Of a stretch of DNA of 64,000 bases, positions 3,891 through 28,485 are shown one piece after another (the stretch's first letter is position 1; each line of letters begins with the position of its first letter). The position numbers were made by a program, and so were the translations under genes. The stretch covers positions 1 through 64,000 of the forward strand of contig JAJQCD010000028.1 in assembly GCA_021202925.1 (NCBI GenBank), written 5' to 3'. The stretch comes from Clostridiales bacterium (GTDB lineage: Bacteria > Bacillota > Clostridia > Lachnospirales > Lachnospiraceae). A model generated the notes under the pieces. That model saw only the letters and a list, made by a program, of their open reading frames with translations. It was not told the origin of the DNA and searched no databases.

Positions 3891-4515
3891 AAAAAGTCTT
3901 CAAGATTTTACTACAGGTAAAAAATATAATACGATTTATGCAGATCCGCCTTGGCAATTTCAGAATAGAACCGGAAAAGTTGCACCAGAGCATAAGAGGT
4001 TAAATCGCTATGAGACTATGTCCATAAACGATATTAAAGCTCTACCTGTTTCTGATATTACCGGAGACAAGGCACACCTTTATTTATGGGTTCCGAATGC
4101 GTTGCTGCCGGATGGACTGGCAGTTATGGATGCATGGGGATTTGAATATAAAGGAAATATTGTCTGGGAGAAAATTCGTAAAGACGGCGAGCCAGATGGA
4201 CGCGGTGTGGGTTTTTATTTTAGAAATGTAACGGAGTTGCTTCTGTTTGGAATAAAGAAAAAAAGCGCACCCAATCGAACATTGCAACCGGCGCGATCTC
4301 AGGTTAATTTGATTAGAACTATGAAGCGCGAACATAGTCGTAAACCGGATGAAATTATTCCTATAATTGAATCGTGCAGTCAAGGCCCTCGAATTGAACT
4401 TTTTGCCAGAGGCGTTCGTGAAGGTTGGGATATGTGGGGGGATCAGGCGAATGAAGACTATGAACCAACTTGGAATACATATTCAAATCATACAGTTGCA
4501 AGTATAGCAAAATAA
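3856..4515 (+). CDS. MT-A70 family N6-adenine DNA methyltransferase
   Basis: This protein of up to 219 residues carries the MT-A70 catalytic motif DPPW at about residues 30-33 (TIYADPPWQFQNRTG) and a conserved RYETMSINDIKALP segment. FYFRNVTELLLFGIK and SRKPDEIIPIIE are further family hallmarks. It overlaps the endonuclease gene, as expected for its cognate modification enzyme. The start is ambiguous among GTG 3856, ATG 3868 and ATG 3880; GTG is given because it is the longest. Members of this family in R-M loci methylate adenine, which would protect GATC-containing sites. Confidence 0.85.
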   Translation: MLKDMADLMSTKKSLQDFTTGKKYNTIYADPPWQFQNRTGKVAPEHKRLNRYETMSINDIKALPVSDITGDKAHLYLWVPNALLPDGLAVMDAWGFEYKGNIVWEKIRKDGEPDGRGVGFYFRNVTELLLFGIKKKSAPNRTLQPARSQVNLIRTMKREHSRKPDEIIPIIESCSQGPRIELFARGVREGWDMWGDQANEDYEPTWNTYSNHTVASIAK

Positions 4516-5963: not shown

Positions 5964-6034
5964 TTAAATATGAAGATTGGAGAAATTTGATTTCTACGCC
6001 AATGTAGAAAAACATCGGGTTATCTTTTGCAAGT

Positions 6035-6080
6035 AAGCCACCGGTTCCAATTCCAAATGAGTTCCGAAAACCGGTGGCTT
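6035..6080. repeat. 12-bp inverted repeat
   Basis: AAGCCACCGGTT (6035-6046) and AACCGGTGGCTT (6069-6080) form a perfect 12-bp stem with a 22-nt loop, about 70 nt after the AlbA_2 gene. No U-run follows on either strand, so it is not a standard terminator. It could still stop transcription or be a recombination relic. Confidence 0.5.
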
Positions 6081-6415
6081 GTCTGACACGATATTTGAGA
6101 TGAATCAAAAATGAGTGGCTACATTTTGGCTACAAAAACCATGCGGACGAACCGGAATGCCCAAATAAATCATCATAATTCGGACAAATGCGCACTGATA
6201 ATGCGTTTTATAATCTTTCGTACGATTGTAAAAGACGAGTTCGAGTGATGCAAATATTCGCCAAAACCGTTGATTTTACTCGTTTTTGGCGGATTTAATG
6301 TTTCCCGTGATGTTACGGTGATGTTAAGAGCGGATTCTAAACATCATTTTCCTTGGCCTGATTGGGCTGCGATATGTCGAAATGGTAAAGCACATTGTCG
6401 AGAGTGAGGCGAAGA
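6081..6415. other. Non-coding stretch with TGGCTACA direct repeats
   Basis: No credible gene is seen here. Two copies of TGGCTACA occur close together near 6115-6135 in a segment resembling sequence found next to tyrosine-integrase genes of integrative elements. This resemblance is from memory and is not decisive. The rest is AT-rich filler leading into the HicB remnant. Confidence 0.3.
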
Positions 6416-6795
6416 ATGATGAGGACGTTGAATGAATATATGGCGATGTCTTATCGCATGGAAATCGTAGAGGATAAGGATGAGGGCGGATATGTGGTTT
6501 CTTTTCCTGACCTGCCGGGATGCCTTACTTGTGGCGAGACAATGAAATCAGCGGTGGCTAATGCCAGAGATGCAAAAAAGACATGATTGGAGACATCTAT
6601 CGAAGATGGAATAGAAATTCAGGAACCGGATTCTCTGGAGGATTATCTGAATACTTTAAGCTGCGGTTCCGCGTAGCCTGCACAGATCACTGGCGAAGCA
6701 TTCAAAAAGAGAGAAAATCAGTATTTATTAAAGCAAGTATTCTGGAATTAGAGCAGGACGAAGCGGTAATGAATGAATTTATCAACGCTGAATGA
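6416..6795 (+). pseudogene. Frameshifted HicB-family antitoxin remnant
   Basis: The first frame encodes the HicB N-terminus (YRMEIVEDKDEGGYVVSFP, then DLPGCLTCGETMKSAVANA). After about 6575 the homology continues in other frames: SIEDGIEIQEPDSLEDY near 6595-6645, then LRSLAKHSKREK near 6680-6715, then NQYLLK near 6717-6735. All these pieces are in the order of a normal HicB (antitoxin fold, then ribbon-helix-helix tail), so at least two or three frameshifts have destroyed the gene. No HicA toxin gene is recognisable next to it. Confidence 0.75.
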
Positions 6796-12809: not shown

Positions 12810-13826
12810 ATGAGAGATGAATACGATTTTAAAAATTTAAATCCACGAAAAAATCCATATACAGACAGATTAAAAGAAAGGATGTCCTTTCATTATGACA
12901 GAGATGAAAGGATTGCCGTGTTTAAAGATACGCTTACTTTATGTAAAGAAAATGAACGTCTCAGAAATTCCATTCGGCAGTCTATTATATCGCAGAAATT
13001 AATTCGAGAGGTTGATAACCCTGGGGAAGTTATCTGCGGACAGCTTGCAGATATGCCTGAAAATACAGGTATGCCTGAAAATGATTCGGATCATGGAGCA
13101 TCGGTGTCTGCATCCGATGCGGATGTGAATATCGTAGTTTCAAAGAAAAGGAGTTATGAAGCTGCGAGAAAGTATGCAGGGAAAAGGAAGGTTTGTGTGC
13201 TGAACTTTGCTTCCGCGACGAATCCGGGAGGAGGCGTGTGGAAGGGATCATCCGCGCAGGAGGAGTGTCTTTGCAGATGCAGCACGCTTTATCCGTGTAT
13301 CAGCGAAGATGCTGTCCGGCAGGGATTCCATGAAAGGCATAGGGCCGGACTCGCATCTGGGGAAATGAATGTACTTTATAATGATGATTGTATTTACACG
13401 CCCGATGTCATAGTGTTTAAATCAGACGAACTGAGACCGAGGACTTTGCCGGAGAGCGAGTGGTATCAAGTGAATGTGATTACCTGTGCTGCGCCGAATC
13501 TGCGGTCAAAGCTATCGAATCACATGAATCCAGATGCGGGAAACCGGGCGGTAAGGATCAGCGATTCGGATCTGATGGCTCTTCACGCCAAAAGAGCAAA
13601 TCGCATACTGGAGATTGCAAAAGCAAACGGAAATGAGGTCGTAATTATGGGAGCGTTTGGATGCGGGGCGTTCCAGAATCCTCCGGCGGTTGTGGCTGCG
13701 GGGATTTGTCAGGCGGTAAAACAACATAGGGGAGATTTCCAGACGATTGAGTTTGCGGTATTTTGTTCAGCCAGGGATACTGCGAATTATGATGCGTTTC
13801 GGAGGGTGTTTGGAGAGAACGTATAG
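12810..13826 (+). CDS. TIGR02452/DUF2263 family microbial PARG (poly(ADP-ribose) glycohydrolase-like)
   Basis: A 338-residue protein with a macrodomain-type PARG catalytic core: NFASATNPGGGVWKGSSAQEE contains the loop GGG (140-142) and the catalytic QEE (150-152). GAFGCGAFQNPP near residue 275 is the second phosphate-binding segment. The family hydrolyses ADP-ribose linkages. The first 22 residues (MRDEYDFKNLNPRKNPYTDR) are not part of the PARG fold and resemble the short N-terminal tag of BrnA/RelB-like antitoxins. Residues 23-90 are helical and extend the usual N-terminal DUF2263 domain. The gene lies about 140 nt upstream of cas3 and is read in the same direction. Confidence 0.85.
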   Translation: MRDEYDFKNLNPRKNPYTDRLKERMSFHYDRDERIAVFKDTLTLCKENERLRNSIRQSIISQKLIREVDNPGEVICGQLADMPENTGMPENDSDHGASVSASDADVNIVVSKKRSYEAARKYAGKRKVCVLNFASATNPGGGVWKGSSAQEECLCRCSTLYPCISEDAVRQGFHERHRAGLASGEMNVLYNDDCIYTPDVIVFKSDELRPRTLPESEWYQVNVITCAAPNLRSKLSNHMNPDAGNRAVRISDSDLMALHAKRANRILEIAKANGNEVVIMGAFGCGAFQNPPAVVAAGICQAVKQHRGDFQTIEFAVFCSARDTANYDAFRRVFGENV

Positions 13827-13966
13827 ATGGTTGGTGGGGGAAGGTTTATGGGTGTTGATAACATGAATTCCAATGGCTCGCGATTAAGTAGAGATGCATT
13901 GAGTCGTCGATTCGAGATGTTTGGATTTTGGATATATCAATAATTGATAAAGGGAGGGTATCAGAA

Positions 13967-16360
13967 GTGAAAGAATATGAGAAATTTGCAGCACATGTCA
14001 GAGAAGAGAATGGCAATGTACAGATACAGGCGGTAAAGGAACATTGTCAGGAAACGGCAGAGTTTTGCAAAAAGTACGGAAATTCTACAGGAACTGGTTA
14101 TATTGCATATATAGCCGCATTATTACATGATATGGGAAAGTTTACGCAGAAATTTGATGATTATGTAAGAGGAAACAAATCCTATCGCAGAGGAGAGATT
14201 GACCACAGTTATGCGGGTGCGAGGTATATTATCGAATTTAGTAACACATTGGGAGCAGAATTTTATGATGTATCGCATTTTATTGCAAGAATCATAGTTT
14301 CTCATCATGGCCTACATGATTGGGTACTAACCGATGGCACGGATTATCTGACCAGACGTACAGGTAAGGACGAAAATTATGAGGTGGCCAAAAGCCATGT
14401 TCAGGAAATCATATCGGAGGATCTTTTGAGAGAGTATATTGGTTTTGCAAACAAAGAATACCATGAGATGAGGGGAAAATTAAAAGCCATTTCCATGAGA
14501 AAACGTACCGCTTTTGCTTTTTATATGGGTATGTTTGAACGTGTGGTGCAGTCCATGTTGATTGATGCAGACAGGACGAATACCTCAGAATTCATGATGA
14601 ACAGGAAGATTGAGCTTGATTATGACAGGAAAAAATTATTTGAATATTTTCACGACAATTATGAAGCCTATATGAAGCGTAAAGCGGAAACTTTCGCTTT
14701 ACAAAATGAGCGCATTGTAAGACAAAGAAACGATATATCGAATCGATGCAGAGACTTTGCCAGACATGAGGCAGGAATCTGTCAACTGATTGTGCCGACA
14801 GGCGGAGGAAAAACGTTATCGTCTCTTCGATATGCAATTGAATATGGGATAGGGCATGAGGCGGAGCGGATTATTTATGTGGCTCCTTTTATGTCTATCC
14901 TTGATCAGAACAGCGATGTGTTTAAAGAAATTGTTGGAGAGGAAAATTTCCTGGAGCATCATTCTAACGTAGTACAGGAAATAGATAATGAGGAAGAATT
15001 GGCGGAATATGAGCTTTACGCTGCCAGGTGGGATAAACCCGTGATTGCAACAACGATGGTGCAATTTCTGAATACACTGTTTCTTGGAAAAACTTCTTCT
15101 GTCCGGCGAATGCACCGTTTTAGTCGTGCAGTTATAATTGTGGATGAAGTGCAGTCATTGCCATTAAAATGTGTGAATCTGTTTTATCTGGCTATGAACT
15201 TTTTAAAAGAAATGTGCAAAAGCGTTATTGTTCTGTGTTCTGCGACTCAGCCAGATTTCACAAAGAGCGATTATCCGATTTTGATGGATGAAGATTCACA
15301 GATGATCGGTGACTACAGAGAAGACTTTGCGGTGTTTAAACGTACACAGATTATTCCGGAGATTGGTACCTGCGCTTATACTTATGATCAGGCGGCAGAG
15401 TTTTGTAAAAATGTTTTCGAGAAAAACAGGAATCTGCTTGTTATTGTGAATACCAAGAAATCTGTTGTGGAAATGAGAGAAAGATTGCAGAAATTGATAA
15501 GTCAGGACGATATGCAAGAAGATGTATCTATTGTGTGTCTGAGTACGAATTTGTGTCCGCAACATCGGAGGGATAAACTGGATTTCCTGAAGGAGAGCCT
15601 GATACAGAAGGAAAAGGTAATATGTATCACAACCCCGCTGATAGAAGCGGGAGTTGATATCTCCTTTGCCAGTGTGGTACGTTTCCTGTCGGGGTTGGAT
15701 AATTTGGCGCAGGCCGCGGGACGGTGCAATCGAAATGGAGAACATGATGGAACGGCACCGGTATATGTGTTGAAAGTGGATGATGAGAATCTTGGAAATC
15801 TAACACAAATAAAACATGCGCAGCAAAATACGATGCGTTTTCTTATGAAGAAAGATGTAGAAAATAATTACCTTTCGGTTGAAGTGATGCGTCAGTATTT
15901 TTCTCTTCTTTATGCGGAAGAAAAAGACCAGCTAACTTATAATGTAAAGGATGGTTCGGTCAGCACAACACTGTTAAATTTGTTGTCAGAGAATGTCCTG
16001 AGATGGAATTTGAATGGAAATAAGCATTTACGATATAGTGCGCAGGCATTTCAGACAGCTGGAGAACTGTTTGAGGTGATTGACAGCGATACCCTGGATG
16101 TCATTGTCCCGTATAATAAAGAAGCAAAGAATCTTATGGAGGAATTGGAATCGGAATCGAATATGGGGAAAGTGAATGATATTTTAAGAAAAGCGCAGAA
16201 GTATACCGTTACTGTTTATCGGGGAATGTTACGAAAGATGGAGGATGAAGGTGCATTGCTCTTGTATGAGTGCGGTGCGGTAGGCCTTAGACACAATTAT
16301 TATGATAGCGAACTTGGGGTGAATTTGAAAGAAAGTATGCATGAATTGTTGATGTTTTGA
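13967..16360 (+). CDS. cas3: CRISPR-associated helicase/nuclease Cas3 (type I-C)
   Basis: A 797-residue Cas3 with an HD nuclease domain fused to a superfamily 2 helicase. It is recruited by Cascade to unwind and degrade target DNA. HD motifs are LHDMGKF (His54, Asp55), DHSYAGARY and SHHGLHDW. Helicase motifs are VPTGGGKT (276-283), VDEVQ (392-396), LCSATQPD, TTPLIEAGVDIS and QAAGRCNRNG. The start is GTG 13967, nine bases after AGGGAGG; a TTG at 13928 is in frame but has no ribosome-binding site. Unlike many I-C loci, cas3 is separated from cas5c by 240 nt holding a hairpin and a second promoter, so it may be regulated separately. Confidence 0.95.
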   Translation: MKEYEKFAAHVREENGNVQIQAVKEHCQETAEFCKKYGNSTGTGYIAYIAALLHDMGKFTQKFDDYVRGNKSYRRGEIDHSYAGARYIIEFSNTLGAEFYDVSHFIARIIVSHHGLHDWVLTDGTDYLTRRTGKDENYEVAKSHVQEIISEDLLREYIGFANKEYHEMRGKLKAISMRKRTAFAFYMGMFERVVQSMLIDADRTNTSEFMMNRKIELDYDRKKLFEYFHDNYEAYMKRKAETFALQNERIVRQRNDISNRCRDFARHEAGICQLIVPTGGGKTLSSLRYAIEYGIGHEAERIIYVAPFMSILDQNSDVFKEIVGEENFLEHHSNVVQEIDNEEELAEYELYAARWDKPVIATTMVQFLNTLFLGKTSSVRRMHRFSRAVIIVDEVQSLPLKCVNLFYLAMNFLKEMCKSVIVLCSATQPDFTKSDYPILMDEDSQMIGDYREDFAVFKRTQIIPEIGTCAYTYDQAAEFCKNVFEKNRNLLVIVNTKKSVVEMRERLQKLISQDDMQEDVSIVCLSTNLCPQHRRDKLDFLKESLIQKEKVICITTPLIEAGVDISFASVVRFLSGLDNLAQAAGRCNRNGEHDGTAPVYVLKVDDENLGNLTQIKHAQQNTMRFLMKKDVENNYLSVEVMRQYFSLLYAEEKDQLTYNVKDGSVSTTLLNLLSENVLRWNLNGNKHLRYSAQAFQTAGELFEVIDSDTLDVIVPYNKEAKNLMEELESESNMGKVNDILRKAQKYTVTVYRGMLRKMEDEGALLLYECGAVGLRHNYYDSELGVNLKESMHELLMF

Positions 16361-16361
16361 A

Positions 16362-16410
16362 GATGAATGAGAGTGCCGCATGGTTATACCATGCGGCACT
16401 CTCATTCATC
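16362..16410. terminator. 22-bp perfect hairpin after cas3
   Basis: Bases 16362-16383 are perfectly complementary to 16389-16410, with the loop TTATA. The stem begins one base after the cas3 stop codon. Neither strand has a U-run after it, so it is atypical as an intrinsic terminator. On the minus strand it would form the 3' end of the putative small RNA described in the next entry. Confidence 0.6.
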
Positions 16411-16479
16411 ATTTGCAAGTACAATCCAACAAATTTCAATCCACATCCTGTACCAATTTTTATTTTGGTTCAAGATGAC
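16362..16479 (-). ncRNA. Candidate crRNA-like regulatory RNA in the cas3-cas5 gap
   Basis: On the minus strand, GTGGATTGAAAT (16444 down to 16433) is identical to the last 12 bases of the CRISPR repeat and contains the 11-nt 5' handle TGGATTGAAAT expected in I-C crRNAs. It is followed by a 22-nt guide-like segment (16432-16411) and the 22-bp hairpin. A minus-strand promoter is plausible: TTGATT (16513-16508), 16 nt, TACAAT (16491-16486). Only a weak ACCAA/TTGGT stem precedes the handle, unlike the strong stem of true repeats. The first six guide bases match TTGTTG at 16526-16531, abutting the cas5 -35 box, beside a TAC trinucleotide (the I-C PAM is TTC). This resembles known Cas-regulating crRNA-like elements, but it is inference. 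Confidence 0.35.
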
Positions 16480-16518
16480 ATACTGATTGTATCATAGAAG
16501 AAAAATAAATCAACTAAA

Positions 16519-16560
16519 ATACTACTTGTTGTTGACAAACATAGAATTTAGTAGTATGGT
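16519..16560 (+). promoter_or_regulatory. Promoter and inverted repeat of the cas5c-cas2 operon
   Basis: TTGACA (16532-16537), 17 nt, TATGGT (16555-16560) is a near-consensus promoter. The inverted repeat ATACTAC (16519-16525) and GTAGTAT (16551-16557) brackets the -35 box and overlaps the -10 box, a good arrangement for a repressor operator. Confidence 0.65.
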
Positions 16561-16601
16561 TATTTTACAATCTAACAAGAAAAAGAAAAGGAGGTGAATA
16601 T

Positions 16602-17348
16602 GTGGTTGTAAGCAAAGCAATACATAGAAATACGGTCGAGTTTGAAGTGTACGGGGATTATGCGCTTTTCACGGATGTCCTGACACGATCGGGCGCAGAA
16701 AAGTGCAGTTATATGATTCCTACATATGAGGCATTAAAAGGAATTGTGCAAAGTGTTTACGCAAAACCGACAATTACGTGGCTGATAGACGATGTACGCA
16801 TTATGAACCCAATTTGCACGGTTCGCAAAGGAATGCGGCCGATTAACTACGGTGGAGGAAATGATCTTGCTTATTATACGTATTTGAAAGATGTGCGATA
16901 TCAGGTTCGAGCTCATTTTGAATGGAATGAAAATCATCCAGAACTGGCTGCTGATCGGTGTGAAAATAAACATCATAACATTGCAAAACGTATGATTGAG
17001 CGAGGCGGACGCAGGGATATCTTTTTAGGCACTCGTGAGTGTGGCGCTTATGTTGAGCCATGTGTCTTTGGAGAAGGAGATGGCTGTTATGACCATAGCG
17101 GTAAGATTTCATATAACCTGATGTATTATGCCATGATTTATGCAGATCAGGCTGAGAAAGAGGAAGACAGGGATCAGATGACAGTGTGTTTCTGGAATCC
17201 GACGATGGAAGACGGAGTGATTCATCTGATCAGGCCAAGTGAGTGTACAGTGAAAAGACATATTAAAAAGATGCTTATTAAGCGTTTCGGTAAAGAATTT
17301 GGTAATTTTATAGGGTTGGAGGAATTTGGAGGAGGTGAGCCTGTTTAG
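16602..17348 (+). CDS. cas5c: Cas5c (Cas5d), crRNA-processing subunit of type I-C Cascade
   Basis: A 248-residue Cas5d protein. In type I-C, which lacks Cas6, it cleaves pre-crRNA at the repeat hairpin and stays bound to the 5' handle. The N-terminal RAMP segment is recognisable (EFEVYGDYALFTDVLTRSG, YEALKGIVQSVYAKPTITWLIDD), as is the RDIFLGTRECGAYVEP region. The start is GTG 16602, five bases after AAGGAGGTG. An ATG two bases earlier is in another frame and would stop after three codons (MWL). The gene ends directly before cas8c. Confidence 0.93.
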   Translation: MVVSKAIHRNTVEFEVYGDYALFTDVLTRSGAEKCSYMIPTYEALKGIVQSVYAKPTITWLIDDVRIMNPICTVRKGMRPINYGGGNDLAYYTYLKDVRYQVRAHFEWNENHPELAADRCENKHHNIAKRMIERGGRRDIFLGTRECGAYVEPCVFGEGDGCYDHSGKISYNLMYYAMIYADQAEKEEDRDQMTVCFWNPTMEDGVIHLIRPSECTVKRHIKKMLIKRFGKEFGNFIGLEEFGGGEPV

Positions 17349-19199
17349 ATGAGTTGGATGAATGAGCTGATAGGCGTGTATGATCAATTTAACGAGAATG
17401 ACGCATCAGATATGTCATTGCTTCCGATTTCCCATTCTACTGCGAATGCACAGATTCAGGTCACGCTGGATGAAGACGGAAATTTCGTATCGGCAGATAC
17501 CGTTATAAAAGAAAAGGCAGAGACGATTATTCCGGTAACGGAGGATTCTGGAGCGAGGAGCAGCGGTATCTGTCCTATGCCTCTTGCGGATAAACTGATA
17601 TATATCGCGGGAGACTATTCGAAATATGCGGTCGGGAAGAAAGCGGATAATGAAGATTATTTTTCCGCATATATCAGTCAACTTAAACAATGGTCAGAGA
17701 GTGAATTTTCGCATCCTGCCGTAACTGCGATCTATCATTATCTTTCAAAAGCACAGATTATGAGTGATCTGGTAAATGCCGGAGTCTTAAAATGTGAGGA
17801 CAAAACAGGAAAGTTGGCAGACAAAATAAAAATCTCCGGTATTGCTCAGGAAGATGCTTTTGTCAGGTTTTGCGTAAATTATGCAGATTTGTCAAAGTCT
17901 AACCAGACATGGATGGATCGCTCATTGTATGAAAGCTTTATTGGTTATAACCGAAGCAGGATGAATCACGTACAATTATGTTACGCAACAGGAAAAGAAT
18001 GTCCGGTTACTTATAAGCATCCGTCTAAGATTCGCAATAGTGGAGATAAGGCTAAACTGATTTCTGCTAATGATGAAAGTGGCTTTACTTATCGCGGCAG
18101 ATTTAAAAACAAGGAAGAGGCGATTTCGGTTGGGTATGAAGCTTCGCAGAAAATGCACAATGCTTTGAAATGGCTGATTGCGCGTCAGGGTATGAATTTT
18201 GGTTCTATGACAGTCGTGGCGTGGACGCAAGCCCTGGAAAACCTGCCAGATATTACAAAGAATCCAAGAGACTGGGATGAGGATTTTGATGATGATGAGG
18301 CAGTCATTGACTCTGGACAGCAATATAAGGAACTGATTCAGCAGATGATTTTTTCTTATCGATCGAAATTGAAGCCAAACACAAAAGTTATGATTATGGC
18401 AGTGGATGCTGCCACAACTGGCCGCCTTTCTATTGCTATGTATGCAGAACTGGAAGAATCCAGATTTTATCATAATCTTGAGCAATGGCATACGGGCACA
18501 GCCGCGTTAAGATATAACCGAAAGAAAAATTGCAGCGAGGTTTATTCTTTTGGAATTTATGATATTGCAAATTGCGCTTATGGGACAGAACAAAATGAAC
18601 GGCTTGTCTGTGATAAGAATGTATTTTCAAAAGTGGTTTTACGCCTGTTCTCCTGTATGGCGGAGGGAACTCCTTTGCCTGACGATATTGTGAGATGTTT
18701 GTATCACAACGCCTCGAATCCATCCGCATATGAAAAAGCTTACAATCACAGGCAGGTACTGGAAACCGCCTGTGGTATGATCCGAATGATGAACATAGAA
18801 AAAAGAAAGGGAGTGATCAGTTTGGCATACGATCCAAATGAAACGAATCGATCCTATCTGTTTGGTTGTCTGCTTGCGATAGCAGATAAAGCAGAGAGGG
18901 AGGCTTATGAAGAGGAGGACAGAAATAAGAGGGTTACAACGGCCAGAAGATATTGGAATCGGTTTTCGCAAAATCCCTATCAGACATGGCAGCGAATAGA
19001 GGAACATTTAAATCCTTATTTTGACAAATTGAAGGAAAAAAGTGTTTATTATCAAGTTCAGATTCAGAAGATTATGGACAAGATGACGATGGAGAATTTT
19101 GAGAAAAACCAGGCATTAGAACCAGAATATTTGTTAGGATATCATCATTTTATGGCATATATGTATCCCGGAAATAAGGAACACAAGGAGGAAAAATAG
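17349..19199 (+). CDS. cas8c: Cas8c (Csd1), large subunit of type I-C Cascade
   Basis: A 616-residue Csd1-family protein, the large subunit that recognises the PAM and supports R-loop formation. Family features include the N-terminal MSWMNELIGVYDQFNEND, LSKSNQTWMDRSLYESFI, the MTVVAWTQALENLPDI segment and the C-terminal helical region with YQVQIQKIMDKM. The internal part also encodes the small-subunit (Cas11c) region in I-C systems, translated from within the gene; I did not fix its start. It follows cas5c with no gap and is followed by cas7 after one base. Confidence 0.92.
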   Translation: MSWMNELIGVYDQFNENDASDMSLLPISHSTANAQIQVTLDEDGNFVSADTVIKEKAETIIPVTEDSGARSSGICPMPLADKLIYIAGDYSKYAVGKKADNEDYFSAYISQLKQWSESEFSHPAVTAIYHYLSKAQIMSDLVNAGVLKCEDKTGKLADKIKISGIAQEDAFVRFCVNYADLSKSNQTWMDRSLYESFIGYNRSRMNHVQLCYATGKECPVTYKHPSKIRNSGDKAKLISANDESGFTYRGRFKNKEEAISVGYEASQKMHNALKWLIARQGMNFGSMTVVAWTQALENLPDITKNPRDWDEDFDDDEAVIDSGQQYKELIQQMIFSYRSKLKPNTKVMIMAVDAATTGRLSIAMYAELEESRFYHNLEQWHTGTAALRYNRKKNCSEVYSFGIYDIANCAYGTEQNERLVCDKNVFSKVVLRLFSCMAEGTPLPDDIVRCLYHNASNPSAYEKAYNHRQVLETACGMIRMMNIEKRKGVISLAYDPNETNRSYLFGCLLAIADKAEREAYEEEDRNKRVTTARRYWNRFSQNPYQTWQRIEEHLNPYFDKLKEKSVYYQVQIQKIMDKMTMENFEKNQALEPEYLLGYHHFMAYMYPGNKEHKEEK

Positions 19200-19200
19200 A

Positions 19201-20061
19201 ATGAGCAGTTTACAGAATAAGATCGATTTCACATTAATTATTACAGCTACAAATGCGAATCCGAATGGGGATCCGCTGGATGGCAATCGGCCGAGAACGA
19301 CGTTTGAAGGAAATGGGGAAATCTCGGATGTGTGTATTAAGAGAAAGATTCGGAACCGTCTTCAGGATATGGGCTATAAAATATTTGTACAATCGGATGA
19401 TCGATGCGATGATGGATATGATAGTTTACGCGCTCGCGCGGAAGGAAACGCAGCACTGAAGGCAATCAGTAAGGGTAAAAATACTGATCGCGAGAAATAT
19501 GCGAAAGTAGCATGTCAGGAATGGATCGATGTCAGAAGTTTTGGTCAGGTATTTGCTTTTAAGGGCGATAATGTGTCGGTAGGAGTCCGGGGGCCGGTGA
19601 GTATTCGTCAGGCAACCAGCATTTCTCCTGTTGATGTTGTAAGTATGCAGATTACAAAGAGTGTAAATAGCGAGGGAGGAAAAGAGGGGAAAGCCTCCGA
19701 TACTATGGGAATGAAGCATCGAATTACATTCGGTGTTTATGTCATCAATGGAAGCATTAATTGCCAGCTTGCTGAGAAAACCGGATTTACTGATGAAGAC
19801 GCAGATGCAATAAAACAGGCTCTTTTGACTCTTTTTGAGAATGACAGTTCTTCCGCGCGTCCTGAGGGAAGTATGGAAGTGTGTCGTCTGTATTGGTGGA
19901 AGCATGATTGTAAGACTCCGAAATATTCTTCGGCAAAGGTACATCGTTCAGTACAGATTAAGCTGAAAGAAGGAGTTGGCAAGGCGAGTTCTATTGAGGA
20001 TTATGATATCAGTCTGATGGAGTTGGATGAGACAATACCGGAAGTTTATGATTTGTTATAA
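19201..20061 (+). CDS. cas7c: Cas7c (Csd2), backbone subunit of type I-C Cascade
   Basis: A 286-residue Csd2/Cas7-family protein that polymerises along the crRNA. It has the N-terminal ATNANPNGDPLDGNRPRTT motif, VRSFGQVFAFKGDNVSVGVRG, RGPVSIRQATSISPVDV and a C-terminal MEVCRLYWWKHDCKTP segment. The start ATG 19201 is preceded by AAGGAGGAAAAATAG, which also contains the cas8c stop codon, so the genes are translationally coupled. Confidence 0.94.
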   Translation: MSSLQNKIDFTLIITATNANPNGDPLDGNRPRTTFEGNGEISDVCIKRKIRNRLQDMGYKIFVQSDDRCDDGYDSLRARAEGNAALKAISKGKNTDREKYAKVACQEWIDVRSFGQVFAFKGDNVSVGVRGPVSIRQATSISPVDVVSMQITKSVNSEGGKEGKASDTMGMKHRITFGVYVINGSINCQLAEKTGFTDEDADAIKQALLTLFENDSSSARPEGSMEVCRLYWWKHDCKTPKYSSAKVHRSVQIKLKEGVGKASSIEDYDISLMELDETIPEVYDLL

Positions 20062-20078: not shown

Positions 20079-20771
20079 ATGTATAAAGAAGACGACTACT
20101 TAATGCTTTCCGGCCTGCAGCATTTTGTGTTTTGCCGAAGACAGTGGGCGTTGATTCATATTGAACAGCAGTGGTCTGAAAATTATCAGACCACTGCCGG
20201 CGAGCTAATGCATAAGAACGCCCACGATGAAGATAAGTTTGAGAAGCGTGGAGATACCATGATTGCCCGTGGGTTACGAATTGCCTCGCCGAAGTTGGGA
20301 CTGAGCGGTCAGTGTGACGTGGTTGAATTTCATAAGGCAATGGAAGGCGTCAGTGTCTTTGGATATGAGGGATGCTGGAAAATCGTTCCCATAGAGTACA
20401 AACGGGGAAAAGCAAAAGAAGGAAAAGAAGACGAGGTACAGCTTTGCGCTCAGGCGATGTGTCTGGAAGAAATGTTTTTGACGCAGATTGACGAGGGCTT
20501 TCTCTACTATGGAGAGACAAAACGACGCACTTGTGTGCTTTTTAGTGAAGAACTGCGGAACTATGTGAGTCAGTGCGCGATGGAGATGCATAATTATTTC
20601 GACCGTGGATATACTCCGAAGGTAAAATCTTCAGGAAAATGCAGAAGCTGTTCGCTCTTTGATCTATGTGTGCCGAAACTGAATAAAAAGGGATCTGTTA
20701 ACAAATATATTGAAGTTCATCTGATCGATGAAGACGCGGATAAGGAGGATGGAACACGAGAAAATTATTGA
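20079..20771 (+). CDS. cas4: Cas4 Fe-S exonuclease of the adaptation module
   Basis: A 230-residue RecB-like nuclease that trims prespacers and selects the PAM. The N-terminal Cys lies in LSGLQHFVFCRRQWALIHI. The nuclease core is KIVPIEYKRGKAK with QLCAQAMCLEEMF. The C-terminal cluster is CRSCSLFDLCVP. The four Cys are all present, so the iron-sulfur site is intact. An out-of-frame ATG at 20074 lies nearer the Shine-Dalgarno AAAGGA than the in-frame ATG 20079 and opens only nine codons. The stop codon overlaps cas1. Confidence 0.92.
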   Translation: MYKEDDYLMLSGLQHFVFCRRQWALIHIEQQWSENYQTTAGELMHKNAHDEDKFEKRGDTMIARGLRIASPKLGLSGQCDVVEFHKAMEGVSVFGYEGCWKIVPIEYKRGKAKEGKEDEVQLCAQAMCLEEMFLTQIDEGFLYYGETKRRTCVLFSEELRNYVSQCAMEMHNYFDRGYTPKVKSSGKCRSCSLFDLCVPKLNKKGSVNKYIEVHLIDEDADKEDGTRENY

Positions 20772-21787
20772 ATACTTTATACGTTATGACAGAAGATGCT
20801 TATCTGACCTTGGATGGTGAAAATGTTGTGGTCGTGAACGGTGATGTTACACTTGGAAGAATTCCGCTACATACGCTGGAAAATATTATCTGCTTTACTT
20901 ATAAAGGAGCGTCTCCGGCTTTCATGGGCGCATGTGCAGACAGAAAAATCGGTTTATGTTTTCATTCTCCAAGAGGAAAATTCCTCGCCAGGATCAAAGG
21001 AAAAGAGTACGGTAATGTCCTGCTGCGCAAGGAACAGTACCGCATTTCAGATTCTACGGAAAGAAGCACGACTTATGCCAGAAATATGATCGTGGGAAAG
21101 GTATATAATAGCCGGTGGAATATAGAAAGAACCATAAGAGATCACGCGTTAAGAGTCAATGCGGATGTTCTGAGAAACGCGGCGCAAACTTTAAAAGACG
21201 GCTATCAGAAAATCCCGCTGATTCAGGAGATGGATGAATTAAGGGGAAAAGAAGGAAAGCTGGCAGAGTGCTATTTTAGTGTCTTTGATGAGTTAATATT
21301 GAATCAAAAAGAAGATTTCATTTTCAAAAATCGCAATCGCAGGCCGCCGCTTGATAATGTAAATGCGTTATTGTCTTTTTCGTATACGGTTCTGGCGAAT
21401 GATTGTGCAAATGCGCTGGAGAGCGTTGGGTTAGATCCGTACGTAGGGTTTATGCATCGCGACCGCCCAGGCCGGAAATCATTGGCATTAGACTTGATGG
21501 AAGAACTTCGCGCTGTTTCCGGAGACAGGTTTGTATTGACGCTGATTAATATGAAAAAGATAAACAGTGGACACTTTGATAAGCAAAAAGATGGTGCGGT
21601 TTATTTAAATGAAAAAGGAAGAAAGATATTTTTCAGTGAATGGCAGACACGAAAAAGAGAGAAAATCACTCATCCATATTTAAAAGAGAAGATAGAATGG
21701 GGATTGGTTCCGTATGTACAGGCATTGCTTCTGGCGAGAACGATACGGGGAGATCTGGATGAATATCCGCCATTTTTCTGGAAATGA
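20768..21787 (+). CDS. cas1: Cas1 integrase (type I-C)
   Basis: A 339-residue Cas1 that, with Cas2, inserts new spacers at the leader end. The catalytic residues are visible: Glu in LRGKEGKLAECYFSVF, His in DPYVGFMHRDRPGRKSLALD and Asp in LALDLMEELR. The start is TTG 20768, overlapping the cas4 stop codon; the next candidate is ATG in YVMTEDAY. The C-terminus (LARTIRGDLDEYPPFFWK) is typical of the I-C subtype. It overlaps the cas2 reading frame by four bases. Confidence 0.95.
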   Translation: MNTLYVMTEDAYLTLDGENVVVVNGDVTLGRIPLHTLENIICFTYKGASPAFMGACADRKIGLCFHSPRGKFLARIKGKEYGNVLLRKEQYRISDSTERSTTYARNMIVGKVYNSRWNIERTIRDHALRVNADVLRNAAQTLKDGYQKIPLIQEMDELRGKEGKLAECYFSVFDELILNQKEDFIFKNRNRRPPLDNVNALLSFSYTVLANDCANALESVGLDPYVGFMHRDRPGRKSLALDLMEELRAVSGDRFVLTLINMKKINSGHFDKQKDGAVYLNEKGRKIFFSEWQTRKREKITHPYLKEKIEWGLVPYVQALLLARTIRGDLDEYPPFFWK

Positions 21788-21801
21788 AATGGGGTGAGAA
21801 T

Positions 21802-22092
21802 ATGCTAATGTTGATTACCTATGATGTCAGTACAGTGGATGGAGCAGGAAGAAGACGATTGCGAAAAGTTGCAAAAGAATGCGTGAATTATGGGCAGAGA
21901 GTTCAGAATTCTGTATTTGAATGTATCGTAGATGCATCACAATCTTTGCTTTTAAAGGATGCCTTATTAAAACTTATTGATCCAGAAAAAGACAGCCTGC
22001 GTTTTTACTATCTTGGAAATAATTATAAAACAAAAATAGAACACTTTGGAGCTAAGAATACTTACGAGGCAAAGGGCGTTCTAATGATGTAG
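21802..22092 (+). CDS. cas2: Cas2 (type I-C)
   Basis: A 96-residue Cas2, the dimeric partner of Cas1. It has the ferredoxin-like start MLMLITYDVSTVDGAGRRRL with the conserved Asp, then YGQRVQNSVFECIVD and DSLRFYYLGNNYK. ATG 21802 is preferred over ATG 21784 because GGGGTGAG (21791-21798) is the ribosome-binding site and the protein then begins like other I-C Cas2 proteins. It is the last cas gene; the leader follows immediately. Confidence 0.94.
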   Translation: MLMLITYDVSTVDGAGRRRLRKVAKECVNYGQRVQNSVFECIVDASQSLLLKDALLKLIDPEKDSLRFYYLGNNYKTKIEHFGAKNTYEAKGVLMM

Positions 22093-22256: not shown

Positions 22257-25200
22257 GTCGCTCCCCACGCGGGAGCGTGGATTGAAATGATTAAGAAGAT
22301 GGGGCGCCCGCTGTGCATAAAGGTCGCTCCCCACGCGGGAGCGTGGATTGAAATTGAACTGGCGGAAATGGATCGGGAGCTCGCGGGCGCGTCGCTCCCC
22401 ACGCGGGAGCGTGGATTGAAATTCGCTCTCCTTGGAAATGTATCTGATCAGCTTATGGTCGCTCCCCACGCGGGAGCGTGGATTGAAATAATGTGAGCCC
22501 AGACGGGACGCTGACACAGACGGTCGCTCCCCACGCGGGAGCGTGGATTGAAATTATGTAGACCAGAGCAGGAGCATCGGCGATGAGGTCGCTCCCCACG
22601 CGGGAGCGTGGATTGAAATTGTTTTATCGTCTGATTGTAAATTGTGATGATTTGTCGCTCCCCACGCGGGAGCGTGGATTGAAATCTGGACAGCGATGGG
22701 ATACAGGCATACTGCGACGCCGTCGCTCCCCACGCGGGAGCGTGGATTGAAATAGCAAATATAACTCTGACTGGTGGGAGGGCCCGTTTGTCGCTCCCCA
22801 CGCGGGAGCGTGGATTGAAATTCGTGCATCGAGGAAACCGTCAAGGCGTGGAGAAGTCGCTCCCCACGCGGGAGCGTGGATTGAAATAGAACAGCATGAG
22901 CAACCTGTCTATAGCGATAGGCATCGCTCCCCACGCGGGAGCGTGGATTGAAATCTTGGCATGGCGTCAAATTCTTCCATGCGCAGATTGTCGCTCCCCA
23001 CGCGGGAGCGTGGATTGAAATCGGATATAAAACGCAGGAGCCGCAGTGGTTGCTGGGTCGCTCCCCACGCGGGAGCGTGGATTGAAATCGAGGAGGAATT
23101 GACCAATGGCTTTGTGTGGAAAGGTCGCTCCCCACGCGGGAGCGTGGATTGAAATCTCGCCGACAAGGGCAAGGCCTGGTTCTGCGTCCGTCGCTCCCCA
23201 CGCGGGAGCGTGGATTGAAATATTGTAGACGAGGCACCCGGTGTCGCCGATCCGAGTCGCTCCCCACGCGGGAGCGTGGATTGAAATAACAAGGAGGAAT
23301 CAACATGGGTGAAGTAAGACACTGTCGCTCCCCACGCGGGAGCGTGGATTGAAATTGCGGAAGTTGTGGAGAAAAAATGGAAAATCCAAGTCGCTCCCCA
23401 CGCGGGAGCGTGGATTGAAATCCTGGGAAATCACCGAGGAAACGCTCCGCGAGAACGTCGCTCCCCACGCGGGAGCGTGGATTGAAATCCGATATACGAT
23501 TGGACCAATAATGACGTCTGGCGTCGCTCCCCACGCGGGAGCGTGGATTGAAATCTCGAAGGCTTGGGAGATGAAATGCTCCGGGTGGTGGTCGCTCCCC
23601 ACGCGGGAGCGTGGATTGAAATAAGGACGGGAAGATGATCGGTCAAGATTATGACTGTCGCTCCCCACGCGGGAGCGTGGATTGAAATATCAGCCTTAGC
23701 CAAATATTGGTCTATGGCATCGGTCGCTCCCCACGCGGGAGCGTGGATTGAAATGATGATTATTCATATACCTTGGATACTGACTCGGTCGCTCCCCACG
23801 CGGGAGCGTGGATTGAAATCTCTCCCAGCGCTCTCGCCTGATCCATGAAATAGTCGCTCCCCACGCGGGAGCGTGGATTGAAATACGAAGGCTTTTGAGA
23901 AGAAAATGCTGGACAGTATAGTCGCTCCCCACGCGGGAGCGTGGATTGAAATATCAATGCCTCAGCATCATAATTGACGCTCGAATATGTCGCTCCCCAC
24001 GCGGGAGCGTGGATTGAAATAGCAAGGCAAAGACCTGTTTGGGCGGCAATTCCGTCGCTCCCCACGCGGGAGCGTGGATTGAAATCACCGATGGACAGTA
24101 GCCGGCCCGGAGTGGTCTTGTCGCTCCCCACGCGGGAGCGTGGATTGAAATTCGTAAGGAGGTGGGAAAATGCTGGAATTTGAGGTCGCTCCCCACGCGG
24201 GAGCGTGGATTGAAATCACGAAAGCGCGGCGCTCCAAAAGGGAACAGGAAGTCGCTCCCCACGCGGGAGCGTGGATTGAAATTATGACAGCCATACCGCC
24301 GACCGTGCATTGTACGTCGCTCCCCACGCGGGAGCGTGGATTGAAATCGGGGATCCGAAGCTGCGCTCTTACCGCGCTCTTTGTCGCTCCCCACGCGGGA
24401 GCGTGGATTGAAATCATGATCACGACTTTCCTGGACAGCAGCGAAAATGTCGCTCCCCACGCGGGAGCGTGGATTGAAATACAGATGTTGCCGTTTCTTT
24501 CGAAAGGTCTGTAAGTCGCTCCCCACGCGGGAGCGTGGATTGAAATTGACAAGGTGGAAGAGTATACCGGCATTACCACGGTCGCTCCCCACGCGGGAGC
24601 GTGGATTGAAATATGAGAGAGGAAGCAAAGCAGGAGCAGATCGTTGTCGCTCCCCACGCGGGAGCGTGGATTGAAATTGACTTAAAAGCCTATATGCCGT
24701 CCCGCATTAAGGGTCGCTCCCCACGCGGGAGCGTGGATTGAAATATTTGGGTTTACGCCAATATAATCCGGCGAATCAGTCGTCGCTCCCCACGCGGGAG
24801 CGTGGATTGAAATTCTAAATATATATAAATAACGTCAAATATCCTGTAGTCGCTCCCCACGCGGGAGCGTGGATTGAAATGGAGAAAAGTCTTAGAACCG
24901 GCAATGAAGGAAATTGTCGCTCCCCACGCGGGAGCGTGGATTGAAATCTGAACACGGATTATCCGTGGATGCACGCATCCCGTCGCTCCCCACGCGGGAG
25001 CGTGGATTGAAATATCCATCCTGAATGCCGCGCTCCTGGGCGAGTCACGTCGCTCCCCACGCGGGAGCGTGGATTGAAATAGTTCTGCATAATCAATGAA
25101 CGCCCCATTATCCGTCGCTCCCCACGCGGGAGCGTGGATTGAAATCGCTCAATGTCGGCAATGAAATCGGAGTAGGGGATGTCGCTCCCCACGCGGGAGC

Positions 25201-28200
25201 GTGGATTGAAATAAGTCTATCTCTCCCCGCATGGTGGTGTAGTGCAAGTCGCTCCCCACGCGGGAGCGTGGATTGAAATCTCGAATAATATGTAAAGTCG
25301 CTGCCCCCAACTGTGGTCGCTCCCCACGCGGGAGCGTGGATTGAAATGTGTCAGCGTCCATGATGTCCCCGAAACCGTTCACGTCGCTCCCCACGCGGGA
25401 GCGTGGATTGAAATTGGAACAGGACGCATATAGCCTTATTCCGCTGTTGTCGCTCCCCACGCGGGAGCGTGGATTGAAATTGCAGAAGCGTAGGTGAGGG
25501 GGCAAAGCCCCCTTTAAGGTCGCTCCCCACGCGGGAGCGTGGATTGAAATCACATAATCCGGCGTACCGTCATCCCGGATCACTGGTCGCTCCCCACGCG
25601 GGAGCGTGGATTGAAATCTAGAAATTTTTTACAGCAATACTCACGGTGAGGAGTCGCTCCCCACGCGGGAGCGTGGATTGAAATTAAGGTAAGCGGCAAA
25701 CCTACGGAAAACGGGTCACGTCGCTCCCCACGCGGGAGCGTGGATTGAAATCAGAATGGGGTTTTTGGAATTCAACCCCAATAAGTCGCTCCCCACGCGG
25801 GAGCGTGGATTGAAATTCTTATGGTTTTGCGTACCGAAGTGCAGCTTTTGTCGCTCCCCACGCGGGAGCGTGGATTGAAATTTCCGAAAGCTTTAGTATG
25901 GTTGTTCGAAGCGGTTGCGTCGCTCCCCACGCGGGAGCGTGGATTGAAATTCATTGTATTTTTGCAGAGCGTCCCCGAAGATACGGTCGCTCCCCACGCG
26001 GGAGCGTGGATTGAAATAGGAAGCAAAGGAAATTCTCTTTTTGTCGCTTTTGTCGCTCCCCACGCGGGAGCGTGGATTGAAATCTCTCCGGCATTTAAGA
26101 ACAGATTTTCTAAGGCACGTCGCTCCCCACGCGGGAGCGTGGATTGAAATTGTTGATACCGACAACATAACCGTCATAACCTAGTCGCTCCCCACGCGGG
26201 AGCGTGGATTGAAATCCTTATTGCAAGTGCTATGTATCCGTCTTTTCCGTCGCTCCTCACGCGGGAGCGTGGATTGAAATGCTCTTACCAGTCCAACCCG
26301 TCCCCGTAAACCCCTGTCGCTCCCCACGCGGGAGCGTGGATTGAAATCGAACGGTACTTCAACATGGAAAGCGCACAGGCAGTCGCTCCCCACGCGGGAG
26401 CGTGGATTGAAATACCTCTGACGGAACGATTACATATGACATGCCATGTCGCTCCCCACGCGGAAGCGTGGATTGAAATTGCAAAAAGCCTGCCATTGTA
26501 ATCATTGTAATGATGTCGCTCCCCACGCGGGAGCGTGGATTGAAATAAAATCCACTCCTGCATTTTAGTCATGGCAACGCGTCGCTCCCCACGCGGGAGC
26601 GTGGATTGAAATTGCACATGAGCCATAAAAAGCACCGCCTTTCCCAGGTCGCTCCCCACGCGGGAGCGTGGATTGAAATAGGGACTATACCGAGGAACAG
26701 CCAAAGCGGGAAGCCGTCGCTCCCCACGCGGGAGCGTGGATTGAAATATTTCAGCACCCCCTTTCCTTATGCTGCCGGAATGGTCGCTCCCCACGCGGGA
26801 GCGTGGATTGAAATACGATCAAGGGGTTAAAGGAATTTCAAAAAGAAGTCGCTCCCCACGCGGGAGCGTGGATTGAAATCTCAATCATTAGAATCCTGTA
26901 TTTGGATTTCTGAGTCGCTCCCCACGCGGGAGCGTGGATTGAAATATGCTGGTAAAGAAGGTTCTTCCGAGTCTCATCTTGCATCGCTCCCCACGCGGGA
27001 GCGTGGATTGAAATTATCGCATATTACTGGTCAAAGGGTCTGCTACAGGTCGCTCCCCACGCGGGAGCGTGGATTGAAATTCCGAGAGCCTTAACAAGTC
27101 CGGTCTGTGTTTCCAGTCGCTCCCCACGCGGGAGCGTGGATTGAAATAAGATACGGCAGTACAGAAAAACCTTACCTTGTCCAGTCGCTCCCCACGCGGG
27201 AGCGTGGATTGAAATTGGCTACGACATTGTTGTTTTTGTTGCTGCCATTCGTCGCTCCCCACGCGGGAGCGTGGATTGAAATCGTTTGTCCAGGCGTTGA
27301 AAGAACAAGTCAAACTCGTCGCTCCCCACGCGGGAGCGTGGATTGAAATATGTAAACGATGTTGCAAGGGAAAGTGACGATACAGTCGCTCCCCACGCGG
27401 GAGCGTGGATTGAAATCCCGGCAAATGTGGTAAGGTTTATCACCCCGCAGTCGCTCCCCACGCGGGAGCGTGGATTGAAATTGTAAAGAACTGGTCTTTA
27501 TCTGGCGAAGCCCGTTCGTCGCTCCCCACGCGGGAGCGTGGATTGAAATCTCATCGTCAAGATCATCAAAATCTAACCCCTCCAGTCGCTTCCCACGCGG
27601 GAGCGTGGATTGAAATAAGAGGAGAATACAAGCCCGATCGGAAGAACTGGGTCGCTCCCCACGCGGGAGCGTGGATTGAAATCCATCTGGTCAGTCACCA
27701 CACGCGCTCCGTCAGAATGTCGCTCCCCACGCGGGAGCGTGGATTGAAATAAATAACTGGCAAGTTCTCCAAGCGGAATATCTGCGTCGCTCCCCACGCG
27801 GGAGCGTGGATTGAAATTCAAGCGGCGGTTGCGCTGGCAATATTGATTAGAGTCGCTCCCCACGCGGGAGCGTGGATTGAAATAAAAAAATATGGAATCC
27901 CTAAAAGAACGATTGAAAGTCGCTCCCCACGCGGGAGCGTGGATTGAAATCCGGAAGAACGGTTGTCTTGCGTATCTGCATCTTTGTCGCTCCCCACGCG
28001 GGAGCGTGGATTGAAATGGAGCATGGCGGCATAAGCAAGCCGGCTCTGCAAGTCGCTCCCCACGCGGGAGCGTGGATTGAAATACGATAAGACTAGACCA
28101 AAAAACAAAAGAAAAATGTCGCTCCCCACGCGGGAGCGTGGATTGAAATATAAAGTGGTTTGCAAGCATTCGCAGAATACCATGTCGCTCCCCACGCGGG

Positions 28201-28485
28201 AGCGTGGATTGAAATCTTTGCCGCTGTGTGACTATCTGGTGACACGGGAAGGTCGCTCCCCACGCGGGAGCGTGGATTGAAATCCAATAAGGGCAGTATG
28301 AAAGGAGTACAAGGTCTGTCGCTCCCCACGCGGGAGCGTGGATTGAAATGTATTATCAGAGCAAGTTTGATTCTAGTGGTTACGTCGCTCCCCACGCGGG
28401 AGCGTGGATTGAAATTTCCAGACCTCTACAGCCCCTTGCGATACATCGATGGGGTCGCTCCCCACGCGGGAGCGTGGATTGAAAT
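22257..28485 (+). CRISPR. Type I-C CRISPR array, 94 repeats and 93 spacers
   Basis: By hand count there are 94 repeats of 32 nt, starting GTCGCTCCCC and ending GTGGATTGAAAT, with an internal 7-bp stem CGCTCCC-CACGC-GGGAGCG. Start-to-start distances are 65-70 nt (mean 66.6), so spacers are 33-38 nt. Most repeats are identical. Variants seen are A for G at base 1 (22923, 26983), T for C at base 9 (26249), A for G at base 17 (26448) and T for C at base 7 (27585). The last repeat (28454-28485) is not degenerate. Cas5c processing should leave the 11-nt handle TGGATTGAAAT. Cas1, Cas2, Cas4 and a leader are adjacent, so the locus looks competent for adaptation. Confidence 0.97.

Follow-up and report, generated by a model that had tools for sequence, protein, structure and literature searches.

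A candidate CreR-type autorepressor RNA between cas3 and cas5c of a Lachnospiraceae type I-C CRISPR-Cas locus

The window analysed here, a 64,000-nucleotide stretch of a Lachnospiraceae genome (contig JAJQCD010000028.1), contains a complete type I-C CRISPR-Cas system in which TIGR profile matches place cas3, cas5c, cas8c, cas7c, cas4, cas1 and cas2 in this order, together with an array of I-C repeats (Table 1). The gap of ~240 nt between cas3 and cas5c raises the question of what it encodes, and an earlier note on this DNA had proposed a crRNA-like RNA that represses its own cas promoter through the I-C effector in the manner of CreR. CreR is the work of Liu et al. (2023, Cell Host Microbe) as described in the reviews PMC13131331 and PMC12737573, and the former, a 2026 review, describes CreRs as acting in types I-B, I-E and V-A. 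The proposal is supported by the anatomy of the element, its partial conservation, the covariation of its stem and a match between its guide and the cas5c promoter region that includes a PAM and a Cascade-like pairing pattern. We consider it highly probable that the element is a CreR-type autorepressor of the type I-C system, which would park Cascade on the cas5c promoter without interference.

Cas5c is the expected crRNA-processing subunit, and its gene starts at a GTG codon located 7 nt past the Shine-Dalgarno-like GGAGG at 16590–16594. A three-codon open reading frame, ATG TGG TTG TAA (16600–16611), overlaps this start codon, and ATG CAA TGA occupies the equivalent position in two related loci (L101 and L115); a mini-ORF over the cas5c start could possibly serve translational coupling. 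A TIGR02452-family protein is encoded directly upstream of cas3 (12810–13826).

Table 1. Positions in the window of the type I-C genes, the candidate regulatory element and its target.
Feature	Position	Strand	Basis or remark
cas3	13928–16360	+	TIGR01587, TIGR01596
23-bp hairpin, GCCGCATGG core	16362–16410	−	fold
Guide TTGTTGGATTGTACTTGCAAAT, 22 nt	16411–16432	−	direct reading
5' handle TGGATTGAAAT	16433–16443	−	identical to last 11 nt of array repeat
Degenerate CRISPR repeat (GTC, stem and handle)	16433–16479	−	fold; same layout as array repeat GTCGCTCCCCACGCGGGAGCG-TGGATTGAAAT
Promoter-like TTGATT-16-TACAAT, extended −10 TG	16486–16513	−	consensus match 9/12
cas5c promoter-like TTGACA-17-TATGGT	16532–16560	+	consensus match 10/12
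Self-target seed TTGTTAGATTGTA	16566–16578	−	12/13 identical to guide TTGTTGGATTGTA
PAM TTC of self target	16579–16581	−	adjoins seed match
cas5c	16602–17348	+	TIGR01876, 225.8 bits; first gene behind targeted promoter
cas8c	17349–19199	+	TIGR01863
cas7c	19201–20061	+	TIGR02589
cas4, cas1, cas2	20079–22092	+	TIGR00372, TIGR03640, TIGR01573
CRISPR array	22257–28485	+	94 copies of 32-nt I-C repeat GTCGCTCCCCACGCGGGAGCGTGGATTGAAAT

On the minus strand from 16479 to 16362, the gap holds GTC, a 12-pair hairpin that abuts the handle, the 11-nt I-C handle, a guide-like segment of the 22 nt first reported and a 23-bp hairpin, so that a standalone repeat-like element lies within the cas locus but outside the array. 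An exact search recovered the 12-nt copy of the 3' end of the repeat, handle included, at 16444–16433 of the minus strand. This 12-mer, GTGGATTGAAAT, has 95 matches in the window, of which 94 fall in the array and the remaining one is that of the element, compared with a mean of 0.00 in dinucleotide shuffles (n = 100). Across the 3.17-Mb genome, the 11-nt handle was matched 98 times, and only four of these matches, including that of the element, are found outside the array; at this density, a handle inside this gap of 242 nt is an event of ~2–3 in 10,000, which agrees with the earlier view that the match is far below chance and indicates that the estimate of ~1 in 1,000 was cautious.

The earlier note had counted the lack of a strong repeat stem among the weak points, which no longer applies. 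The stem has 12 pairs, interrupted by a single mismatch, and a loop of 8 nt; it joins 16477–16465 with 16456–16444 through the arms CATCTTG-A-ACCAA and TTGGT-A-CAGGATG, and has a folding energy of −13.2 kcal/mol (z −3.84), with none of 200 shuffles as stable. It ends exactly at the handle (16477–16444), where the stem of the array repeat also ends, and it is preceded by GT, so that the unit begins with GTC like the array repeat. By its predicted fold, the element is a complete repeat whose stem has been enlarged and rewritten. The promoter-like sequence noted upstream of it was found again at 16513–16486 with a TG before the −10, and the predicted −10 ends 7 nt before the G of GTC, so the RNA would begin at the repeat; such promoter-like matches are weak evidence alone, with four sites in a 401-nt stretch compared to 1.9 expected from shuffles. 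A TATAAT-like box lies a few nucleotides upstream of GTC in most related elements (by eye).

The terminal hairpin (16410–16362), described previously as 22 bp in length, is present but is 23 bp long, and it sits where the hairpin of the next repeat would be in a normal I-C crRNA. No second handle or repeat follows the guide anywhere in the gap, this hairpin standing there instead, so the element is not a two-repeat mini-CRISPR. A T-run follows the 3' hairpin on the minus strand in most relatives (by eye), where the hairpin is plausibly a terminator, but it is absent in the window and in the closest relative (L042), and terminator prediction made no call at the hairpin of the window. As no U-run follows this hairpin, 3'-end formation is the least certain part of the element. 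A search of Rfam returned no match above the gathering score, and the weak matches were mostly microRNA precursors that match the long hairpin.

Where would such a guide lead an effector? The target had been placed at TTGTTG abutting the cas5c −35, next to a TAC, and this candidate is ruled out by a far better match. With the PAM left free, the guide matches the surrounding gap best on the minus strand at 16578–16566, a site preceded by TTC, so that the short seed of six bases and the TAC PAM, both regarded as weak points, give way to a match of 12 out of 13 positions and a TTC. Within this 13-nt seed, guide and target differ at position 6 alone, where type I Cascade flips the base out and leaves it unpaired. 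The target overlies the cas5c start site, and a 34-nt footprint (16545–16578) covers the −10 and the expected start of transcription. TTC is the known type I-C PAM according to PMC8406640 and PMC6546366. TTC-TTGTTNGATTGTA has a single exact match in the 3.17-Mb genome, which is the self-target site, and with up to two mismatches allowed it has four genome sites compared with three for the backward control. Protospacers of the array, which would reveal its PAM, were absent from a phage collection at megablast sensitivity; exact 22–23-nt patterns for 5 of the 93 array spacers were likewise without a match in viral contigs.

The complementarity is short, at 13 nt in the window and ~17 nt in 25 guide-target pairs described below, and the pairing in the window is the weakest among 26 such loci (11/14, with mismatches at positions 14–17). 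A Xanthomonas type I-C system is described in PMC8406640 as needing a match of at least 27 bp to kill, and pairing of 13–17 nt should therefore bind without killing, a threshold that is taken from another I-C system.

Under the CreR-type reading, from which we infer transcription, processing, binding, repression and relief as successive steps, a small RNA would be transcribed from the minus strand with a start near 16479, and Cas5c would recognise its hairpin and cut between 16444 and 16443 to leave the 11-nt handle, the 22-nt guide and the 3' hairpin. I-C Cascade would then assemble on the handle and bind the cas5c promoter at TTC and 16578–16566, where its footprint over the −10 and the start site would keep cas5c and the genes that follow it from being transcribed. 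Cas3 interference would not be triggered, as no more than ~13 nt (~17 nt in most relatives) can pair. More Cascade would bring more repression, which constitutes a negative feedback, and competing array crRNAs or Cascade-blocking anti-CRISPRs would relieve it and raise cas expression, a step modelled on CreR as described in PMC12737573.

The closest relative provides a direct comparison. Its Cas5c is 87% identical to that of the window, its element is kept, and its DNA shows 84% identity to window positions 16341–16610 over 242 ungapped columns, with several gaps. The guide of L042, TTGTTGAATCA, and its target, TTGTTTAATCA, carry the same changes relative to those of the window at positions 7, 10 and 11. 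It is difficult to account for such a joint change of guide and target in two closely related loci unless pairing is under selection. The joint change also bears on the alternative that the element is a decaying relic, left by a CRISPR unit or a once active regulator and without repressive function in the source strain. This might be suggested by the pairing in the window, which is less extensive than at the 25 other loci, and by the lack of a U-run after the hairpin. A relic would not keep guide and target changing together at three seed positions, and the promoter-like sequence, the 12-pair stem, the exact handle, the TTC and the 12/13 seed are all intact; we therefore regard a relic as unlikely.

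Absence of the element from related loci had been named beforehand as grounds for refuting the proposal, and the comparison ran against such a refutation. A Cas5c search found 197 loci, and among the best 80 of these, 15 carry a like minus-strand element in the same gap and orientation, which gives 16 gap elements with that of the window. One of them (L051) is clearly degenerate, and three (L066, L115 and L051) have no clear stem. When each guide was compared with its own gap irrespective of PAM, the highest-scoring site was flanked by TTC for 14 of the 16 elements, window included, and when TTC is required, 11/16 match at every one of the 14 non-flipped positions among the first 16. There is no clean target in L051 and L074; at each of the 14 other loci, none of 1000 shuffled guides did as well as the own guide. 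In L081, L089 and L115, a guide taken from another locus scores as well as the own one, since promoters resemble each other.

The stem of the repeat was analysed in an alignment of 12 elements that start at GTC. This set omits L067 (the same element as L066), L081 (no GTC start), and L115 and L051 (no clear stem), so that its covariation figures lean towards well-formed elements. Four of the first five pairs of the repeat stem, those tested, change on both sides, and 96.5% of cells are paired. Both helices taken jointly have a covariation score of 0.473, compared with 0.235 when shuffled (0/500), and sliding the partners by 1–3 columns lowers pairing from 95.2% to 23–57%. One of five covariation measures, that of further pair types, was not above the control (115/500 shuffles). 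Shuffling of the stem in single elements, which is weaker evidence than the alignment, gave p = 0.018 for the window and p = 1.8e-4 for 15 elements combined, with several short stems not significant alone.

A systematic count was made over 81 type I-C loci, consisting of these 80 (the best of 197) and the window, 74 of which have a scannable region. Handle-like sites with at most two mismatches outside arrays were taken as candidates and scored against neighbouring DNA without a PAM requirement. Of 64 such candidates, 23 reach at least 13/14 matched positions, compared with 361 of 31364 arbitrary positions (1.15%), a rate at which ~0.7 of the 64 would be expected by chance. With L042 and L115 at 12/14 and the window at 11/14, the last admitted by a looser cut than the rest with its site already known, 26 of the 81 loci have an element upstream of cas5c or cas3 that matches DNA at the adjacent cas promoter, relatives being no independent samples. 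These elements are located in the cas3–cas5c gap in 14 loci and upstream of cas3 in 12. With promoters predicted by consensus only, 14 of the 26 footprints cover the −10 and five the −35 of the best gene-strand promoter, while four lie just downstream of the −10 and three lie 1–13 nt upstream of the −35.

In 48 of the 74 scannable loci, the searched regions yielded no element with a target, which shows that the element is not essential. None was found in the region before cas5c in 14 other relatives (L012–L025) either, 13 of which have cas3–cas5c gaps of at most 44 nt and one (L018) is without a detected cas3. Two loci drew attention in their own right. L086 has at least 10 exact array repeats between cas3 and cas5c (~6000–6660, plus strand), an unusual place, and L090 has, upstream of cas3, a match to the covariance model described below (4310–4416, minus strand) that contains an exact handle but has a target of only 10/14 beside CTC; this element is perhaps decaying or differently aimed.

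The 26 loci yield 25 distinct guide-target pairs, which allowed the pairing to be examined position by position. Positions 1–16 except 6 and 12 were used in selecting the pairs, so their high counts arise partly by construction: 24, 25, 25, 25 and 25 matches at positions 1–5, 25, 25, 25, 25 and 23 at positions 7–11, and 24, 23, 22 and 22 at positions 13–16. Positions 6, 12, 17 and beyond, and the PAM, had no part in the selection. Matches fall to 10/25 at position 6 and 12/25 at position 12, number 19/25 at position 17, and drop to 1/25 at position 18 and to 3–10 at positions 19–34. Reduced matching at 6 and 12 is more in line with Cascade pairing than with an antisense RNA, and pairing ends at 17, far below the 27 bp that interference required in another I-C system. 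The single match at position 18 is below the ~28% assumed by chance (p = 0.003), perhaps itself by chance among many positions.

The flanking trinucleotide, which was not imposed in selection, is TTC in 17 pairs, TTT in seven and TCT in one. All targets flanked by TTT (L077, L079, L080, L097, L099, L102 and L120) lie upstream of cas3. Position 6 is paired in 6/7 of the TTT elements compared with 4/17 of the TTC elements (Fisher p = 0.009, kinship ignored), and PAM strength may thus be traded against pairing, with TTC elements mostly mismatched at position 6 (13/17) and TTT elements mostly matched (6/7).

A covariance model built from the 12 aligned elements had pointed to the elements upstream of cas3. 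Applied to 392 genomes of the order, 391 of the class and 32 of one family, taken irrespective of whether they have a I-C system, the model matched in two genomes of the order and five of the class (the window included in each) and in four of the family. Seven matched loci lie outside the window, and one of these, L128, is identical to L080 by coordinates and guide, which leaves six new loci. Five of the six have a target of 13 or 14/14, with TTC in L123, L124, L125 and L127 and TTT in L122. The match in L126 was rejected as a false positive, as its best target is 10/14 and no cas gene is nearby; it adjoins a sigma-factor-like open reading frame, by reading of the sequence. The locus of L122 (G428:C1:576841-576937) holds a similar element with a TTT-flanked 14/14 target and, on the same kind of reading, a Cas6-like open reading frame, and the design may extend to a second subtype.

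These features weigh on three further alternatives. One is that the solitary repeat acts as a decoy that titrates Cas5c or Cas7c by repeat mimicry, the guide being irrelevant. Racrs, as far as PMC10651486 describes them, are solitary repeats with their own promoter, include an I-C example and so resemble the element; they are carried by viruses and plasmids, whereas the element here is a host element inside the cas locus, viral contigs gave no exact match to its layout pattern, and its guide seems to be under selection to pair with the neighbouring cas promoter beside a PAM. A decoy is in our judgement very improbable. Equally improbable is a plain cas3 terminator or an antisense RNA with a coincidental handle match: the 23-bp hairpin does begin 1 nt past the cas3 stop codon, but the T-run in most relatives follows it on the minus strand (by eye), antisense pairing gives no reason to expect a PAM or a relaxation at positions 6 and 12, and the handle and stem are conserved. 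An addiction module, in which a CreA-like antitoxin RNA represses a toxin gene and not the cas genes, shares the mechanism (PMC9458426 and PMC12737573, as far as these describe it) and could point to the three-codon ORF over the cas5c start, but we give it hardly any credence, because the target promoter leads directly to cas5c, with its GTG 7 nt after GGAGG, and 12 other loci have the target upstream of cas3.

The preferred reading, a CreR-type autorepressor, has precedents. Shmakov et al. (2023, NAR) reportedly predicted standalone repeats whose spacer partly matches cas promoters widely in type I, often as two-repeat mini-arrays; these share the standalone repeat and the partial cas-promoter match with the element here, which differs in having a single repeat. 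Workman et al. (2021) are said to have described a natural single-guide RNA of Cas9 that autorepresses cas genes, which is likewise RNA-guided autorepression by the system's own effector, but belongs to type II and is built from the tracrRNA, not from a repeat. CreR itself, as the two reviews describe it, is also a crRNA-like RNA with limited complementarity to a cas promoter and proposed autorepression by its own effector; the present element differs in belonging to type I-C with expected processing by Cas5c, in being built from one degenerate repeat with a terminator-like hairpin behind it, and in being known from sequence alone. The CreA RNAs of CreTA and CrePA share degenerate repeats, a partial promoter match and Cascade-dependent repression, and CreA in haloarchaea uses a TTC PAM, according to what PMC9458426 and PMC12737573 report; their difference is that the target here is a cas promoter, and no toxin gene was recognised under it, where only the three-codon ORF precedes cas5c. 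Among the literature matches listed, none describes a type I-C autorepressor, the Shmakov survey standing outside this comparison, and a whole-word search for 'type I-C' together with 'CreR' gave no match. This kind of self-control is thus already known from CreR, and the candidate type I-C case would be what is new, as far as the literature matches listed reach. Possible variant features are its design around a single repeat, the limit of pairing at 17 nt and the subgroup with TTT.

If the element acts as proposed, it is a directly testable piece of wiring for how such bacteria could hold a CRISPR system low yet ready. The natural guide-target pairs form a ready-made experiment on the pairing length and PAM with which I-C Cascade binds without Cas3, and the set bears on CRISPR interference tools. 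We are evenly divided on a broader reading, in which the elements would form a family of compact I-C autorepressor RNAs across Clostridia, each composed of one degenerate repeat, a guide and a terminator (~84–114 nt) and aimed at the promoter region of the leading cas gene, namely cas5c when it has its own promoter and otherwise cas3. On this broader reading, pairing would be held at 17 nt, made up of three segments of five bases separated by the free positions 6 and 12, and would end abruptly at 18. If that is true, evolution would have set the binding strength of these RNAs below the interference threshold.
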